A DNA stretch of 48,600 nt from a virus: IMG/VR virus record IMGVR_UViG_3300010885_066665, positions 1 through 48,600 of that record. One strand, written 5' to 3'. Every line of letters starts with the position of its first letter. The first letter of the stretch is position 1. Below, one piece after another: positions 24,343 through 46,228 of this stretch. Under the pieces are notes generated by a model. That model searched no databases, had not been told where the DNA came from, and saw nothing but the letters and a program-made list of their open reading frames with translations. The position numbers and the translations under genes are program-made.

Positions 24343-25593
24343 ATGGCGAGAAAAAAAATTGTCGCACAAAAATGCGATTTTTGTGGAAAGTCATCGAAGC
24401 AAGTCGGCAACCTCGTGGAGGGTGGCGATTCTAATAAGGTCTACATCTGCGTCGAATGCCTTCAGACAGCGAACTCAATGGTCAAAAGCAACGTAGGCGA
24501 CTCGGGTTTCGACATGAAGCTCCAAAGCCCCCGCGAGATCGTCAAACAGCTCGACCGGCACATCTGCGGCCAGGACGAGGCAAAGCGGAGCCTTGCGGTC
24601 AGCGTGTACAATCACTACGTGAGGATTATGGACGGGCAGTGGAGTGGGATGCTCGTGGACAAAGATCTTGCAGAAACTGAAATCGACAAAAGCAATGTTC
24701 TGCTCGTCGGCCCGACGGGTTGTGGCAAAACGCTCCTTGCGTCAACCTTGGCAAAGATTCTTGATGTTCCCTTTGCGATCGGCGACGCGACCACTGTCAC
24801 CGAGGCTGGCTATGTAGGAGAGGACGTCGAAAACCTCCTCCTCCGACTCCTCCAAGCGGCCGATATGGACGTTGCCAAGGCACAAGTGGGCATACTTTAC
24901 ATCGACGAGATCGACAAGATAGGAAGGTCGAACAAGAATGTCTCAATCACCCGAGACGTTTCGGGAGAAGGCGTACAGCAAGCACTGCTCAAGATGCTTG
25001 AGGGAACCGTGTGCAATATCCCCCCTCAAGGCGGCAGGAAGCATCCTGAACAAGCGTTCATTCAGTTGGACACGAGCAACATCCTTTTCATTTGCGGAGG
25101 TACGTTTGTCGGGATCGAAGAAATAGTGAAGAAACGTCTTGGTCAGAAGAGGATAGGGTTTGGTGGCGAAAGCAAGGATTCTGACCTTTCTAAAAATGAA
25201 CTCATCAAGAGGACTCAGACCGAGGATTTCATCGAATTCGGCATGATCCCCGAGTTCATTGGACGCCTCCCCATCCACGCCTGCGTCGGGGAACTTTCCG
25301 AGGACGAACTGTGCCATGTTCTCACCGAGCCGAAGAATGCCCTTTTGAAGCAATGCAAAAAGCAATTTCTCTATTCTGGCGTGGAGTTGAATTTTACGCC
25401 CGCGGCCATCAAAGAGATCGCCAAGATCGCATCGAAGGAAAAAACAGGCGCCAGGGCTCTGCGTGGAGTGGTTGCCAAGATTATTAATCCTATCATCTTT
25501 GATCTTGCTGATTATGCGAACTTCACTATAATCATCGATGAGAAGTTTGTGCGCGGAGAAGATTGCTTATCAAAAATTCCTAAAGCCGCTTGA
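24343..25593 (+). CDS. clpX: ATP-dependent Clp protease ATP-binding subunit ClpX
   Basis: A 416-residue AAA+ unfoldase. An N-terminal C4 zinc finger (C11, C14, C36, C39) is followed by Walker A GPTGCGKT (123-130), the pore loop GYVGED (156-161), Walker B ILYIDEID (184-191), and the RKH loop (232-234). The IGF tripeptide at 271-273 is the loop ClpX uses to dock ClpP. The C-terminal domain has EFIGRLP and GARALR, as in bacterial ClpX. It is full length and seems intact. A viral or mobile copy with an intact ClpP-docking loop could redirect the host ClpP protease. It has its own promoter and is followed after nine bases by the alpha-CTD-like gene. Confidence 0.95.
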
Positions 25594-37566: not shown

Positions 37567-37734
37567 ATGCTGTGCGCAATTAAGTTGAGCGGCGTGAGCG
37601 TCGATAAGTTGATAGGCTCCATAAACAAGGTCGTCGGAGATTATGTTAAGGAGGAGGGCGATACGGATGACGCCTTGCTAGTTATCTCTATAGCAAAGGT
37701 GGTAGATCATGAAGATTTTGCAGAAGGACTTTGA
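37567..37734 (+). CDS. Small unknown protein (55 aa)
   Basis: A 55-residue gene that is easy to miss: ATG 37567 with AAGGAG nine bases upstream, and stop TGA at 37732-37734. Its product reads LCAIKLSGVSVDKLIGSINK, then VVGDYVKEEGDTDDALLVIS, an amphipathic alpha/beta pattern unlike noise. It overlaps the following gene by 26 bases in a different frame. The upstream DNA is shared with the start of the minus-strand HNH gene. Function unknown. Confidence 0.65.
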   Translation: MLCAIKLSGVSVDKLIGSINKVVGDYVKEEGDTDDALLVISIAKVVDHEDFAEGL

Positions 37735-38191
37735 CCCTTCTGAGTGGATCAAGGAAAACCTTTTCGGCAAGCATTGCCAAGATGCTCGAAGGCTTACTAG
37801 AACTCAGGAGGATATGGTCTGCTCTGTCTCTGCGGAGGCAAGCTGCCGCTACGCCGTAGAAATCCTCAAGGACAGGCTTCCAGATAAGTACGAGGAAAAG
37901 GTGTTCAAGGATCCGCTTTGGTCTTTGACCTATGCCATATATATCCTCAAGGGCAAAGTGCCCAAACGGTACGAGGAAGTGTTTTCCATGAACACCAAGA
38001 CGGCCATGATGTACTCCAAGTACGTCCTTCACGGAAGGCTTCCCGAAGACATGCACCAGTTCATGGTCATGAAGAGTTTTGAAAGCCCGGGCGACGAGTT
38101 TATCAAGAGTTACTTCGAGTTTGTTGGGGAAAAGAATAAAGCCGCGCCCTCAACGCAAGGGCACGGCCTTATCTGTCATGGAATCATTTGA
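37709..38191 (+). CDS. Helical-repeat protein, family member 1
   Basis: A 160-residue protein of a five-member local family. It has repeats of about 22 residues with the form 'YA..(I/V)LK.R(L/W)P...E': CRYAVEILKDRLPDKYEE, then TYAIYILKGKVPKRYEE, then MYSKYVLHGRLPEDMHQFM, closed by a capping motif LPEDMHQFMVMKSFESPGDE, then IKSYFEF. These should stack as paired helices in a solenoid. The last 17 residues (KAAPSTQGHGLICHGII) are translated from a terminator hairpin of the opposite gene. Repeats suggest protein or nucleic-acid binding. Function unknown. Confidence 0.72.
   Translation: MKILQKDFDPSEWIKENLFGKHCQDARRLTRTQEDMVCSVSAEASCRYAVEILKDRLPDKYEEKVFKDPLWSLTYAIYILKGKVPKRYEEVFSMNTKTAMMYSKYVLHGRLPEDMHQFMVMKSFESPGDEFIKSYFEFVGEKNKAAPSTQGHGLICHGII
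38131..38167 (-). terminator. Terminator of the 38184 minus-strand gene
   Basis: Read leftward: a hairpin with arms 38141-38150 and 38158-38167 (9 of 10 pairs, one mismatch), followed by TTTATTCTTTT. It lies inside the 3' end of the opposite repeat-protein gene. Confidence 0.7.
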
Positions 38192-38381
38192 TCATAACGA
38201 CTTTGACATTGGGGTCGCCTATCTCAAGAATCTTGTACTTCTTGAAATTTCCGCTGGATACGAACACGGCAATAGCGCTGTTAGTAGGCCATGGAAGTTT
38301 CGGATTGATCCTTGACACGTAGTACACCTTTTGTTTTGTGTCGCTACTTTCGTCGTCTATCTTCAGGTTGGATGTGTTCAT
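38184..38381 (-). CDS. Small unknown protein
   Basis: A 65-residue protein starting at ATG 38381 with GGAGGT six bases upstream. It reads SDTKQKVYYVSRINPKLPWP, then TNSAIAVFVSSGNFKKYKIL, then EIGDPNVKVVMIK: strand-rich, like a small beta barrel (SH3 or OB-like). Its own terminator follows. It is on the opposite strand to the array and overlaps the end of the repeat gene by eight bases. Function unknown. Confidence 0.65.
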   Translation of the reverse strand: MNTSNLKIDDESSDTKQKVYYVSRINPKLPWPTNSAIAVFVSSGNFKKYKILEIGDPNVKVVMIK

Positions 38382-38504
38382 ATTATACCTCCGTGTAAAG
38401 TACGAACACCTTTATATATCAAGAGCCCTATTCAAAAATTTGGTCGAATGGAAAAGTTTAATGAACGCTTTGGACAAATTGTCACAGATAGGCCGGGGAA
38501 CTGG

Positions 38505-38517
38505 GCCGCCGGGCGGT
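38505..38517 (+). repeat. Dyad element 6 (GCCGCCGGGCGGT)
   Basis: Copy in the 150-base gap before the 38532 gene, with a CAAGG ribosome site five bases after it. Confidence 0.75.
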
Positions 38518-38531
38518 TGTCAAGGTAGAGC

Positions 38532-39134
38532 ATGAGACCGAAGGATGTTTACGATCAAGCTGTGAAGAAGGGCAAACGGCTCAAGAGCTACGAGAATGTA
38601 GTGGCTCAGGACGCCGACTATTCCCTTTTGTACGCCAAGAACGTCTGCAAGGGCCCATTCGTCATGGGCGAGAGTTCGATTTCCAACCATCCATTTAACG
38701 CCTACCTATACTGCAAGGACGTTATCAAACAGAGGTGGTACTCTGCCGAGGATGCGATCAAGAAGGACTGTCGTAGTTCCTGCTGCTACGCTAGGGATGT
38801 GATAAAGGGAAGGTGGCACGACGCCGAGAGGAATATTGTCAAGTCGCCCGAATGGGCCGCCACTTATGCGGAAGAGGTGATGAAGTCCAGGTTCATCGAG
38901 GCCGAGACCACCATTTCGAAGAAGGAGGCCGCCGCCGTGAACTACTACCACTTTGTGATAAGAGGCAACTGGGATGGATGGACGCAACGGCAGATCATGA
39001 AATCCGAGGTCTGGATGTATTACTTGGCCAAGGGGATTGGGCACACGCTTCCCAAGGAACTCCATGACCAGATGATGCTTAGGAACCCGAGGAATGAGTA
39101 TGTCGCCCGATACATCAAGGAGTTTTGCCGATGA
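38532..39134 (+). CDS. Helical-repeat protein, family member 2
   Basis: A 200-residue member with six clear repeat units: LLYAKNVCKGPFVMGE, YLYCKDVIKQRWYSAE, CCYARDVIKGRWHDAE, ATYAEEVMKSRFIEAE, NYYHFVIRGNWDGW, and YYLAKGIGHTLPKELHDQMM, the last being the cap. The 'YA.DVIKGRW..AE' unit is the best-preserved version in the family and similar repeats occur in other phages, as I remember. The Trp and Tyr of each unit should pack in the core of a solenoid. It is coupled to the next member by ATGA. Function unknown. Confidence 0.78.
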   Translation: MRPKDVYDQAVKKGKRLKSYENVVAQDADYSLLYAKNVCKGPFVMGESSISNHPFNAYLYCKDVIKQRWYSAEDAIKKDCRSSCCYARDVIKGRWHDAERNIVKSPEWAATYAEEVMKSRFIEAETTISKKEAAAVNYYHFVIRGNWDGWTQRQIMKSEVWMYYLAKGIGHTLPKELHDQMMLRNPRNEYVARYIKEFCR

Positions 39135-39985
39135 AAACTCCGATGAAAACACCCAAGTGGCAAGTTGACAAGGAATGGGCGCTCCGTAGGGCCAAGCGCA
39201 AGGGCCGCCTTCCCGAGGATGTGGAAAGTCTCTTTTTGGGCGACCCAGATGCTTGCCTCAGGTACTCCAAATGCCTCGAAAAAGACGAAAATTTCAAGGG
39301 GCGACTTCCTGGATTACTTGAGGACTCCGTGTGCGAAGTCCTCGAATCAGAAAAATGGCCCAAATACATCCAGGAAAAAAAGGACTCCAGGGAGCGGGCG
39401 GTCGTCAAGTGGCTCACCGACTACTGCCGCGTCGGAAGGCTGCCGCAACGCATGGAGAGGTTGCTGTTTCGGTGCGTCGAGTCCAACATGGAGAGCCCCT
39501 ACAACTTCGGAGCCGAAAGGGCTCTCTTCTACGCGTCTAAGTTTCCCGAAATTCCCAAGGAGTATGAAAATCTCTTCTGGAAGTACGGACACACGGCTGT
39601 ACAGTACGCAATCCAATCCAATAAGAGAATGCCTCCCGATGTGGAAGAGGATTTCTTGAAGAACCAGACGGACGGGGATGATTTTGTCTCCTACTGCAAT
39701 GCGGTATTCAAGGGAAGAGCGCCAGAAAACATAGAGAACGCAATAATCGACAGCCCGGAACACTGCCTCTACTACGCGAAGGAGGTTATTTTGGGGCCTC
39801 TTCCGGGGTCATTGCACTCAGCGATGACCATGAGGAGCTTCGAGGAAAACGACACGACAGTTTCGGACTACTTTGAATTCATAAAGTTTGCGAGGAAATA
39901 TGTAATAGGAACACTTGTTAATTTCGACAAAAACGCTACAGTAAAGGAGGTTCTTGCCGAACTCGGACTCACAGAATATTCATGA
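39131..39985 (+). CDS. Helical-repeat protein, family member 3
   Basis: A 284-residue member starting at ATG 39131, overlapping the stop before it. Units include ALRRAKRKGRLPEDVES, RYSKCLEKDENFKGRLPG, KWLTDYCRVGRLPQRMER, FYASKFPEIPKEYENLF, QYAIQSNKRMPPDVEE, and SYCNAVFKGRAPENIENA, then the cap YAKEVILGPLPGSLHSAM and MRSFEENDTTVSDYFEF. The C-terminal 40 residues (RKYVIGTLVNFDKNATVKEV) extend past the cap. It is the longest of the family and the most divergent. It is coupled to member 4 by ATGA. Function unknown. Confidence 0.75.
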   Translation: MKTPMKTPKWQVDKEWALRRAKRKGRLPEDVESLFLGDPDACLRYSKCLEKDENFKGRLPGLLEDSVCEVLESEKWPKYIQEKKDSRERAVVKWLTDYCRVGRLPQRMERLLFRCVESNMESPYNFGAERALFYASKFPEIPKEYENLFWKYGHTAVQYAIQSNKRMPPDVEEDFLKNQTDGDDFVSYCNAVFKGRAPENIENAIIDSPEHCLYYAKEVILGPLPGSLHSAMTMRSFEENDTTVSDYFEFIKFARKYVIGTLVNFDKNATVKEVLAELGLTEYS

Positions 39986-40365
39986 AAGATTGGATCATAA
40001 TACAGTCGTATATTCAGGCAAGGGAAATCGGACCTGTCCCCAAGATGGAAGGCATCATAGCCCAGAGCGGCGAGGCTTCATACTTCTACGCCCTCAAGGT
40101 TCTCCACGGAAGGTTCGAGAGGGGCGAAGACTCAATCGCCAAGACTCCCACGTGGGCCGTCAAATACGCCCGGTTTATCATTAGGACAAGGTTTGAGAGG
40201 GCCGAAAAGCACATGTGCTCGAGCCCGGAATGCTGCTACGAATACTTCAAGCATGTGGTGAAGCAGAAGCTCCCCGAAAACATGCACCAAGCAATGGTCA
40301 TGCACAGCTTTAAGAGTCCGCTCGACCATTTCATTAAAAAATACTTCAAAGAGATAAAAAAGTGA
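39982..40365 (+). CDS. Helical-repeat protein, family member 4
   Basis: A 127-residue member with units FYALKVLHGRFERGEDS, KYARFIIRTRFERAEK, and EYFKHVVKQKLPENMHQA, followed by MVMHSFKSPLDHFIKKYF. The cap is close to that of member 1 (LPEDMHQFMVMKSFESP versus LPENMHQAMVMHSFKSP). It is the shortest clean version and useful as a family reference. It is coupled to a GT9-like gene by GTGA, so its product and the transferase are made together. Function unknown. Confidence 0.75.
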   Translation: MKDWIIIQSYIQAREIGPVPKMEGIIAQSGEASYFYALKVLHGRFERGEDSIAKTPTWAVKYARFIIRTRFERAEKHMCSSPECCYEYFKHVVKQKLPENMHQAMVMHSFKSPLDHFIKKYFKEIKK

Positions 40366-41255
40366 AAAACATAATCGTTGTCGTTCAAGGCGGCCTGGGC
40401 GACCAGCTGTGCGCCGAGCCTGTCATACGTAAGATTATAGCGAGGCATCCCGACAAGAGCGTCCATGTTGTGGGCGAGTCCTTGTTCTTCCGACATCTCG
40501 AAGCGGAGATTCATCCGTATGAATCTAGTATTGAGACGGATGAGGGAAGCCTTGTCTTGGAGACATTTTCCGCCGAGAGGCAATTCGGAGTCAGAATAAC
40601 ATCTTTGCATCCGGTCGATTTCATATCGATTTCCACAATGAAAAATACGCTCTCCTCCCTCGACAAGCAGATGGTTCTTTCGGCAGACAGAAAAAGTCCA
40701 GAAGGAGGGCTTCTCCTGATTCACCCCGGAAAGACATGGCCTAACAGGACATTTCCAAAACCATGGTGGCAGGAAGTAATCGACCTCGCCTCCAAAAAGA
40801 GGAAGTGCGCCCTTATAGGAACACATATTGATGAGGACAAGGGACTGGTCGATGTGGATTGCCCTCCGAATTGCCTCGATCTGAGAGGCAAGACGACAAT
40901 CGAAGAATTGATCTCCCTTGTTTCTGCGAATGACGTTCTCTCCAATGATTCGTTCCCTGTCCACATCGCAGGAGCCTTCGACAACTGGATATTTATGATC
41001 CCCACGGCGAAGCACCCCGAGCACGTTCTCCCGTTTAGGATGGGTGGTCAGTCCCATAAGGTCTGCTGCCCCGTCAAGAGACTCATGTCCGAGGACATGC
41101 CCGTCACCTCCCCCGGAGTCTATCCTCGTTCCGACCAAGTTCCCGAAGGGTTCGACATTATGGAATATTTGCCCCGCCCCGAGGATCTCGCGGAGATCGT
41201 CCTGAAAAAGTCCTTGCCGGGCGGTAGAAGGCAAGGACCGGTGCTTTGGTGTTAA
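40362..41255 (+). CDS. GT9-like (heptosyltransferase-type) glycosyltransferase
   Basis: A 297-residue protein starting at GTG 40362. KNIIVVVQGGLGDQLCAEPV, then IRKIIARHPDKSVHVVGES is the N-terminal domain of GT9 enzymes. The C-terminal domain has LLIHPGKTWPNRTFPKPWWQ, ALIGTHIDEDKGLV, then LDLRGKTTIEELISLVSAND and LSNDSFPVHIAGAF, which is the nucleotide-sugar site. Such enzymes move heptose or related sugars to a glycan. The C-terminal tail is partly encoded by dyad element 7. It lies in the middle of the repeat-protein family, an unexpected place for a sugar enzyme. Confidence 0.85.
   Translation: MKNIIVVVQGGLGDQLCAEPVIRKIIARHPDKSVHVVGESLFFRHLEAEIHPYESSIETDEGSLVLETFSAERQFGVRITSLHPVDFISISTMKNTLSSLDKQMVLSADRKSPEGGLLLIHPGKTWPNRTFPKPWWQEVIDLASKKRKCALIGTHIDEDKGLVDVDCPPNCLDLRGKTTIEELISLVSANDVLSNDSFPVHIAGAFDNWIFMIPTAKHPEHVLPFRMGGQSHKVCCPVKRLMSEDMPVTSPGVYPRSDQVPEGFDIMEYLPRPEDLAEIVLKKSLPGGRRQGPVLWC
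41213..41225 (+). repeat. Dyad element 7 (CTTGCCGGGCGGT)
   Basis: Copy inside the 3' end of the GT9-like gene; its left arm is the least preserved of the set (core GCC-N-GGCGGT intact). Confidence 0.65.
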
Positions 41256-41266
41256 AGGAGTCAGAA

Positions 41267-41440
41267 ATGAACAGACGAACGGTTGCTCTGCTTCTTGTTT
41301 TTTCCTTCCTTGGAGGCTCCGCATTTGCGGCAAAGACCTACAAGTACAGATGCCCCAAATGCAAGCTGATCCAGGAATACGGCCAGCCGGGATCAAAGAA
41401 GTGCCCCAACGACGGCCACACCATGATCAGGATGAACTAG
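41267..41440 (+). CDS. Secreted small zinc-ribbon protein
   Basis: A 57-residue protein starting at ATG 41267 with AAAGGAG six bases upstream. Residues 1-22 are a signal peptide (NRRTVALLLVFSFLGGSAFA, with cleavage after AFA). The mature part has CPKCKLIQEYGQPGSKKCPN, a four-Cys/His zinc ribbon with a C-terminal GH. An exported metal-binding protein on the periplasmic side is likely. Its stop touches the next start without a gap. Confidence 0.72.
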   Translation: MNRRTVALLLVFSFLGGSAFAAKTYKYRCPKCKLIQEYGQPGSKKCPNDGHTMIRMN

Positions 41441-41647
41441 ATGTTCAAGGTGAACGAAATAAAAAGCTGGGCCAAGAGACACGGCATCACTCTGAAGAAG
41501 AAGGGCGAAGGATACGTCTGGTTCGAGGAGGGATTCGATGAGTCGGCTCCCTCCTCGATAGACGACGCCGTTTTCGCCATATACAATAAGATCACCGGCG
41601 GAAAGTACGTGGGACACCAGAAGAAATACAGGAGTGGCGATGCTTAA
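41441..41647 (+). CDS. Small unknown protein
   Basis: A 68-residue protein beginning directly after the preceding stop. FKVNEIKSWAKRHGITLKKK, then GEGYVWFEEGFDESAPSSID, then DAVFAIYNKITGG is an alpha/beta layout seen in small phage proteins. The helix 'V..IK.WAK.HG....KK' is common at the N-terminus of these. Eight bases overlap with the next gene. Function unknown. Confidence 0.65.
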   Translation: MFKVNEIKSWAKRHGITLKKKGEGYVWFEEGFDESAPSSIDDAVFAIYNKITGGKYVGHQKKYRSGDA

Positions 41648-42377
41648 TTTCAACAAGTTTTCGGACCTGCGAAAGGTTTTTGAAAACACCATCACAAAGG
41701 AAGACTTGATCGTGGCCCTCTTCGAGGATGTCCCCGGGCTGGAGACGTTCACGTTCAGCGTGACCAACGAGTACGACGACAGCAACTACTCGGATCATTC
41801 GAGGCTCTTGAAAATCAACGGCATCAGGATCGACTACGACAACAACTACGAGGGCGACGAGGGCTTCGAAGACTACGAGGAGGAAGAGGCGGCGTCTAAT
41901 CATCCGGTGGGTGAAAAAATCTCCGACATTAGGGCGATATCTGCCATCAGGGAGGTCGTTGACATGGTCGGAGCCTCCTTCGGATATGACGATTCTCATG
42001 TTGTGACGAGGGACTCATTTAGTCCAAGGCGACTTTCGAAGTCGGACAAGGCGGAGAGGGAATACGCCATTAGCTACCTCACGGGGAAGAAGATTGACGA
42101 TGCGTTCTTCCTTAAGAACGACGCGAAGTGGGCCCTCTACTACGCGGCCGACCACGGCAGGTTCGACGAGGAGGTTGAGTTCAAAATCTTCGCGAAGAAG
42201 GGAAGAATGCGGGAAGCCTACGAATATGCCAAGCGTGTGATCAAGGGAGCCCTGCCTGAGGTTGTGGAGAATTTTTTCATCCTCTCCACTTCAAGCAAGC
42301 ACGACGACCACGAATGCCTGAAGAAATACTTGGAATTCAAAAATTCCAAACCCAAAAAGGCGGCCGCCAGGCGGTAA
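41640..42377 (+). CDS. Helical-repeat protein, family member 5, with N-terminal domain
   Basis: A 245-residue protein starting at ATG 41640, five bases after AGGAG. Residues 1-130 are a separate acidic alpha/beta domain (LRKVFENTITKEDLIVALFE, then ETFTFSVTNEYDDSNYSDH). Residues 140-235 hold repeat units: REYAISYLTGKKIDDAF, LYYAADHGRFDEEVE, AYEYAKRVIKGALPEVVENF, and the cap-like FILSTSSKHDDHECLKKYLE. The family member is thus fused to a new N-terminal domain. The last codons (A-A-A-R-R-stop) come from dyad element 8. Function unknown. Confidence 0.7.
   Translation: MLNFNKFSDLRKVFENTITKEDLIVALFEDVPGLETFTFSVTNEYDDSNYSDHSRLLKINGIRIDYDNNYEGDEGFEDYEEEEAASNHPVGEKISDIRAISAIREVVDMVGASFGYDDSHVVTRDSFSPRRLSKSDKAEREYAISYLTGKKIDDAFFLKNDAKWALYYAADHGRFDEEVEFKIFAKKGRMREAYEYAKRVIKGALPEVVENFFILSTSSKHDDHECLKKYLEFKNSKPKKAAARR
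42363..42375 (+). repeat. Dyad element 8 (GCCGCCAGGCGGT)
   Basis: Copy overlapping the end of the repeat gene and giving its stop codon. ACAAGGAG follows nine bases later, before the WGR-ligase ATG. Confidence 0.78.
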
Positions 42378-45058: not shown

Positions 45059-46228
45059 ATGGTTCACTATACTTACAAATACAGACTGTATCCAAATAAG
45101 GAACAACAAAACAAACTAGCCATTCACTTTGGTTGCTGCAGGTATGTGTACAACCACTTTCTTGACCAGAGAAAACAATCATACATTAACACCAAGAAAA
45201 GTCCCAACTACTACAAACAAGCAAAAGAACTGACGAACCTCAAGAAAGAAAAGGATTGGCTATATGAAACCAACAGCCAAGTATTGCAGTTTGAACTCAA
45301 GTGTCTTGACATAGCGTACAACAACTTCTTCAGCAAAAGAGCAAAATTACCCAAGTTCCACAGCAGACGAGACAAACAAAGTTTTACAGTCCCGCAATTT
45401 GTGGAAGTGAAGGAAAACAAAATTCACTTTCCCAAATTCAACGAAGGTATAAAGGTTAAACTGCACCGCCCTATCACTGGCAACATAAGACACGCAACAT
45501 TGAGCATGAACAAGGCTGGGCAGTACTTCGTGAGTATCCTTGTTGAGAAAGAAATCAAATCTCTCAAGAAAAACAAGAACAAGGTGGGAGTTGATCTTGG
45601 AATTAACAGCCTTGCAACACTGAGCAACGGCAAGAAATACAAGAATATCCGTAGTTACAAGAACCTTGAGGTTAGACTACGAATGTTGAACAAAGAACAC
45701 AGCAGGAAAAACAAGGGGAGTAAAAACAAAGAAAAATCAAGAAAACGATTGGCAAAGTTGCACTTGAAGATAGCAAACATTCGTAATGACCACTTGCATA
45801 AGGTAAGTCGCCAAATAATCAACGAGAACCAAGTGATTTGTTTGGAAGACTTGAATGTAAGTGGCATGATGAAAAACAGATGTTTGAGCAAGAGTGTTGC
45901 CGATGTATCAATGAGCGAGTTTGTTCGTCAAATTGAATACAAGGCAAACTGGTATGGCAGAAAGGTTGTTAAGATTGGAAGATGGTTTCCCTCAAGCAAG
46001 ACTTGTTCAAAGTGCAATTTTGTGGTAGAAAATTTACCATTGAGCGTTCGCAGTTGGGAGTGTCCGAAGTGCAAGACCAAGCATGATCGTGACACCAATG
46101 CTGCGATTAACATACTCAATGAAGCGAAAAGAACCGTAGGAACTACGGGAATAGCCTGTGGACTTGGTGTAAGACCTGAGAGTAATCAAGGGCAACCGAG
46201 GTCGAAGCAGGAAGCCCACTCCCTTTAG
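45059..46228 (+). CDS. tnpB: TnpB RNA-guided nuclease
   Basis: A 389-residue TnpB. The N-terminal region begins YKYRLYPNKEQQNKLAIHFG, the usual opening. The RuvC-like active site has D179 (VGVDLGINSLATLSNG), E263 (ICLEDLNVSGMM) and D345 (KHDRDTNAAINIL), and the zinc finger C316-x2-C319 with C335-x2-C338, so it appears intact. TnpB uses an RNA from the element's right end to cut DNA next to a short target motif and thus keeps the element in place. There is no strong ribosome site before ATG 45059. The stop lies inside the right-end hairpin. It is AT-rich compared with its neighbours. Confidence 0.93.
   Translation: MVHYTYKYRLYPNKEQQNKLAIHFGCCRYVYNHFLDQRKQSYINTKKSPNYYKQAKELTNLKKEKDWLYETNSQVLQFELKCLDIAYNNFFSKRAKLPKFHSRRDKQSFTVPQFVEVKENKIHFPKFNEGIKVKLHRPITGNIRHATLSMNKAGQYFVSILVEKEIKSLKKNKNKVGVDLGINSLATLSNGKKYKNIRSYKNLEVRLRMLNKEHSRKNKGSKNKEKSRKRLAKLHLKIANIRNDHLHKVSRQIINENQVICLEDLNVSGMMKNRCLSKSVADVSMSEFVRQIEYKANWYGRKVVKIGRWFPSSKTCSKCNFVVENLPLSVRSWECPKCKTKHDRDTNAAINILNEAKRTVGTTGIACGLGVRPESNQGQPRSKQEAHSL

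Follow-up and report, generated by a model that had tools for sequence, protein, structure and literature searches.

The closest described relatives of the proteins reported here belong to the phage protein family phrog_28193 (apparently including gp435 of Salicola phage SCTP-2, accession code: ASV44450.1), in which a 'WCT' domain is followed by the same repeat in a few degenerate units. These proteins differ from the five that we study in having no cap and few repeats, and the profile E-value for the second of our five proteins is 0.01. When the predicted fold of that protein is searched against a viral structure library (BFVD), the best matches are two uncharacterised phage proteins, A0A6J5RY29 and A0A248SK38 (at 648 aa equal in length to gp435), with E-values of 0.008 and 0.0097.

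A comparable design is known from the ankyrin/F-box (PRANC) proteins of poxviruses, which are virus-restricted paralogues, several per genome, with variable N-terminal repeats and a common C-terminal module (PMC9414399). The likeness to our five proteins is an analogy only and implies no homology: the poxvirus proteins have another repeat, another C-terminal module and a eukaryotic host, and a Pfam scan of the five finds no ankyrin, PRANC or F-box match. LRV (PF01816), Sel1, TPR, HEAT and DUF4116 are likewise helical solenoids of short repeats, and some viral ones are among the weak fold matches. Their Pfam sequence matches to the family, however, are sub-threshold or absent, and none gives a significant fold match; in the PDB the model of the second protein has no match at E ≤ 0.001 (best E 1.4). 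While the type of fold, an alpha-solenoid, is already familiar, what is new is a short unit without a curated family or a solved relative, and its near-confinement to uncultured large phages.

Five homologous genes in the window

The stretch of DNA analysed here (the window) is the 48.6-kb viral record IMGVR_UViG_3300010885_066665, positions 1 to 48,600. An initial annotation of its sequence had named five related ORFs, at 37709, 38532, 39131, 39982 and 41640, and all five are present at these places and are homologous. Member 1 (37709..38191, + strand, 160 aa; assigned by profile and BLASTP) has its own ribosome site and about three units of a GxLPxxxExxF type followed by the cap. Member 2 (38532..39134, + strand, 200 aa; profile and AlphaFold) has seven two-helix units including the cap and is the nearest to the consensus KGRWPEAE repeat. 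Member 3 (39131..39985, + strand, 284 aa; profile) is the most degenerate, with about seven units by eye, the cap and a C-terminal tail, ATVKEVLAEL, that is found in other family members too. Member 4 (39982..40365, + strand, 127 aa; profile) has three to four units and the cap, and member 5 (41640..42377, + strand, 245 aa; profile and model) joins a new N-terminal alpha/beta domain (about residues 1-125) to three to four units and a variant cap without the histidine.

The kinship of the five is far beyond chance. We search the 458 six-frame ORFs of the window with a cap-family profile made only of proteins from two other viral contigs, G001 (204 kb) and G004 (323 kb), which contains no sequence of the window but is not wholly independent of it, as its members were first gathered with a seed alignment that included four stretches of the window. 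The matches are the five named ORFs and no others (ORFs at 38529, E=3e-43; 39922, 6e-33; 37706, 2e-29; 39098, 1.5e-25; 41562, 3e-17), while the next ORF has E=0.39 and, among 4,580 shuffled ORFs (a ten-fold shuffle), none does better than 1.6. What this profile detects in all five, at E ≤ 3e-17, is the cap unit with its preceding units and final helix, member 5 included although it has no cap histidine. Profiles of the repeat itself reach fewer of them. One whose seeds never came from the window finds member 2 (E=1e-22) and member 4 (0.002), and one built without the window gives member 2 at 3e-23, member 4 at 5e-4, member 5 at 0.017 and member 3 at 0.3, with member 1 not among the matches listed below E=5; members 1, 3 and 5 are tied to the family via the cap profile. 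In BLASTP within the window, member 1 finds member 4 (39% identity over 101 aa, 1e-20), member 3 (1e-11), member 2 (9e-8) and member 5 (2e-6). The similarity is not sporadic, and runs family-wide in profile searches in and outside the window.

The five are only 20-40% identical to each other and so are old copies, not recent ones. Members 2 and 5 each have closer counterparts in other phages than among their window paralogues. A tree of the last ~110 residues resolves little, and orthology can be read from it only for member 5 (SH-aLRT 97).

The five genes are long open frames, most of them tightly coupled and provided with a ribosome site. The initial annotation had them all in one coupled unit, which holds for members 2, 3 and 4: together with a GT9 glycosyltransferase gene (40362) they form a run (38532..41255, + strand) joined by 4-base overlaps (ATGA, ATGA and GTGA). 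Member 1, however, is parted from this run by a 65-aa ORF on the opposite strand with a GGAGGT ribosome site (38184..38381, - strand), and member 5 lies three genes downstream; the GT9 gene is followed by two small ORFs, member 5 and then a WGR-domain ligase. The small ORF at 41441, just before member 5, resembles by eye one that comes immediately behind a capped protein in G004 (L104:13211-13414). Other neighbours encode UvdE, two ATP-dependent ligases and an HNH protein. Promoter and terminator scans find no more candidates than in shuffled sequence.

The repeat and its predicted solenoid

The unit had been put at about 22 residues, and this has to be corrected to about 26. It consists of a 12-residue helix with YA..VIK, a GRW-P or GRLP turn, an 8-residue helix with EAE..I, and a short loop; the ankyrin repeat, by way of background, has 33 residues. 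Over 139 non-redundant repeats (75% identity) the conserved core comprises Y1, A2, V5, I6, R9, W10, E12, A13, E14, I17 and A24, where the near-invariance of Y1, A2 and E14 is partly built in by the pattern that seeded the repeat model. The most variable positions are 3, 4, 16, 22 and 23. Variable positions 22, 26 and 3 are spaced i, i+4, i+7 on the first helix and would form a stripe on its outer face. The motif Y-A-x2-V-I-K-G-R-W-P-x-A-E that the initial annotation ascribed to all five is clear in member 2 but only there, members 1 and 3 using the sister unit GxLPxxxExxF, which is present also in G004 and in a third contig, G011 (187 kb). The proposed range of three to seven units is about right (seven in the model of member 2, by eye in the others).

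The AlphaFold model of member 2 (pLDDT 94.6, pTM 0.86) predicts with high confidence an all-helical solenoid of 15 helices, stacked as seven two-helix hairpins and a final helix, as had been anticipated. Judged by this model, the repeat is an alpha-solenoid with a short unit, without a curated family or a solved relative. A Pfam scan of the five proteins finds no family above cut-off, the repeat has no name in Pfam, NCBIfam or PHROG, and PADLOC defence models give no match to the five below E=0.014. On highly repetitive relatives, Pfam matches such as Phage_FRD3 and DUF982 were rejected as sums of weak stretches. The predicted pI spans 5.2 to 9.4 across the five; members 2 and 4 are basic (9.2 and 9.4) and members 3 and 5 acidic, with a median of 6.4 for the family.

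From alignments, the cap (LPExxHNxM) is the last unit, modified, followed by one more helix. The form LPxxxHxxMxMxSF given for it is complete in member 1 (LPEDMHQFMVMKSF, 38039..38080, + strand), member 3 (LPGSLHSAMTMRSF, 39800..39841, + strand) and member 4 (LPENMHQAMVMHSF, 40270..40311, + strand), but partial in member 2, where the cap is LPKELHDQMMLR and the motif LPKELHDQMMLRNP (39048..39089, + strand). The cap region of member 5 (LPEVVENFFILSTS, 42252..42293, + strand) has no His or Met; its cap reads LPEVVENFFIL, and its orthologues likewise have no His.

That one member carries a new N-terminal domain is borne out in member 5, where the domain takes up about 120 residues and is conserved in three other contigs, namely G004, a close sibling of G004, and G011. 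No Pfam family reaches its cut-off for this domain and the PDB has no match to it; it is predicted with moderate confidence to be a separate alpha/beta domain (mean pLDDT of member 5, 75.6). The protein is kept over its full length across separate phage contigs at about 37-45% identity, and in G004 a ligase-like gene abuts its orthologue.

Occurrence in other phages

A first scan with an idealised consensus repeat finds 55 loci in viral contigs of up to 478 kb, and in 84,980 species (cellular) genomes the same repeat is found in 2 contigs only, both from metagenome-assembled bins. Searching 50,697 deposited phages by tblastn with member 2, the consensus repeat, a G001 member and member 5 gives no match, whereas a ligase used as control finds 1,203 records and the cap-fused phrog_2164 domain 74. 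The exception among deposited phages is the Salicola phage protein, which is recognised via its other domain. The repeat is almost confined to uncultured large phages. Looking for relatives with the member 2 protein alone, or with one degenerate DNA pattern, finds no match where the idealised consensus does, and the cap alignment is too variable for a collection scan. A literature search finds no description of the repeat, and the words repeat protein, solenoid, helical repeat and tandem repeat are absent from a 2026 jumbo-phage review.

By its gene content the window belongs to one huge-phage lineage with G001 and G004. Its UvdE is 60% identical to that of the lineage, its ligases 57 and 56%, and its AAA protein 69% over the part compared; its ClpX, which has an N-terminal zinc-finger-like segment and is encoded at 24343-25593, is 68% identical to that of G001, and the gene order ClpX, AAA protein, UvdE, ligase is the same in the two. 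Because G004 carries a large terminase, these can be taken as tailed phages. The family is expanded in them: at least 21 members are found among ~195 ORFs of G001 (120 kb covered) and at least 10 in G004 (100 kb covered). The five members and these relatives sit among small accessory genes.

In other large viral contigs, too, tandem paralogues share one constant end and vary in repeat number, and the end differs by lineage: a C-terminal tail in L018, an N-terminal leader in L017, L025, L041 and L047, and the LPxxxHN cap in the window. The cap is also found fused to other domains, namely the phrog_2164 domain (which stands without the cap in 74 deposited phages), a phrog_4400-type domain, and the N-terminal domain of member 5. 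A constant end on a variable solenoid is what one may expect of adaptors, and it would also arise if the end just closes the fold.

Candidate functions

The reading that we favour, and rate at about even, is that the five act in the cytoplasm as adaptors or scaffolds, each specific for its partner, and belong to an undescribed, virus-restricted family of alpha-solenoids that has been multiplied in the accessory regions of huge tailed phages. Each solenoid would use its variable outer face to grip a partner of its own, from host or phage, and the common cap end would either only stabilise the fold or dock all the paralogues to one shared component. The initial annotation had suggested that the five bind different partners, for example host proteins. 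Different partners would fit the variable unit number, the variable stripe, the wide range of pI and the long-kept member 5 orthologue; nothing, however, favours host over phage proteins. On the other side, variable surface positions are equally predicted by plain solvent exposure, and the cap, being a modified repeat, may be conserved for purely structural reasons. A common docking site would in any case not be universal, because member 5 and its orthologues have no cap histidine.

Several other readings draw on the same features. Two-helix units of constant length would also suit modular reading of nucleic acids, as by TALE, PUF or PPR repeats, with a role in replication, repair or RNA control, and the basic members 2 and 4, the repair-type neighbours (UvdE, the two ATP-dependent ligases and the HNH protein) and the ligase-like gene beside the member 5 orthologue in G004 point the same way. 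This is quite unlikely in our judgement, given the acidic members 3 and 5, the family median pI of 6.4, variation that extends over the whole helix face and not over one or two code positions, and the lack of any sequence or fold match to nucleic-acid-binding repeats. A place in the virion, or packaging with the genome as internal proteins, is likewise quite unlikely for the five. In other phages these repeats do come after a 'GxGTxWCT' (WCT) domain found also in PA5oct gp279, a virion protein identified by mass spectrometry whose gene adjoins that of the large terminase, but that domain is absent from the five members, which with their G001 and G004 relatives lie among small accessory genes.

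The ClpX of the window and of G001, with its zinc-finger-like segment, raises the thought that the capped proteins feed other proteins to the phage's own unfoldase. A C-terminal tail TVKExLxxL is shared by member 3 and five other members and by 0 of 348 other ORFs, the motif being chosen post hoc. We give this adaptor role only a slim chance, as ClpX is not found in G004 or G011, which both have capped members (these contigs may be incomplete), and ClpP is absent from these contigs except G003. Finally, near-identical units in some arrays (L018, L019) and the free variation of repeat number are what would be seen if unequal recombination in repetitive genes had left the copies as a by-product that does little by itself. 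Such an origin is very unlikely for open frames of this length, most of them tightly coupled and with a ribosome site, that are old copies by their mutual identity and one of which, member 5, is conserved in full length between phage contigs.

Returning to partner-specific adaptors or scaffolds, a bolder and unlikely extension is a modular adaptor system of huge phages, in which interchangeable alpha-solenoid 'grips' with a common C-terminal dock would recruit many proteins, of host or phage, to a single phage machine that they share (e.g., the phage ClpX or a repair complex), a bacterial-virus counterpart, with an unrelated repeat, to the ankyrin/F-box proteins of poxviruses.

Proteins commonly use helical solenoids to recognise other molecules, and in large-genome viruses such repeats are often multiplied. 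In some genomes the family described here is a visible share of the accessory genes, as in G001, and it offers a handle by which many 'hypothetical proteins' of huge phages can be annotated. If partner binding is true, the family would represent many phage-host or phage-phage contacts that are so far unstudied, and its compact 26-residue scaffold may be of use in protein design.

Domains joined to the repeats

Ahead of the repeats, the proteins at eight loci of other viral contigs (L007, L020, L034, L043, L045, L046, L048 and L054) carry a GxGTxWCT domain; those of them that were scanned yielded no Pfam name for it. This domain matches a virion protein of Pseudomonas phage PA5oct that was detected by mass spectrometry and whose gene adjoins that of the large terminase. 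The third window member (39131-39985) closes with a short tail, TVKE(L/V)(L/I)xxL, also seen in L097, L098 and L103. The motif, picked post hoc after the tail had been seen, occurs in 5 of 31 family members; it is absent from 348 further ORFs on the same contigs.

Elsewhere, the proteins of L124, L122 and L144 (190-kb contig) contain many repeat blocks each and reach about 450 to 740 aa. By eye, the N-terminus (HGTD...) of the repeat protein at L008:4437-5450 resembles an ADP-ribosyltransferase/phosphotransferase-type fold; a Pfam search of this protein did not confirm it.

Other genes of the window

Between 3822 and 26570, translations judged by eye include numerous glycosyltransferase-like proteins, several radical-SAM-like proteins and one ParB-like protein. 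The phage encodes a ClpX (24343-25593) with a zinc-finger-like segment at its N-terminus and 68% identity to the ClpX of G001, a 204-kb contig of the same huge-phage lineage; ClpP was found in neither the window nor G001.

The TnpB-type transposon protein (45059-46228) is 95.7% identical to its counterpart in the 323-kb contig G004 (L103:8053-9231). This identity lies far above that of the other shared genes and points to a recent transfer between related huge phages.
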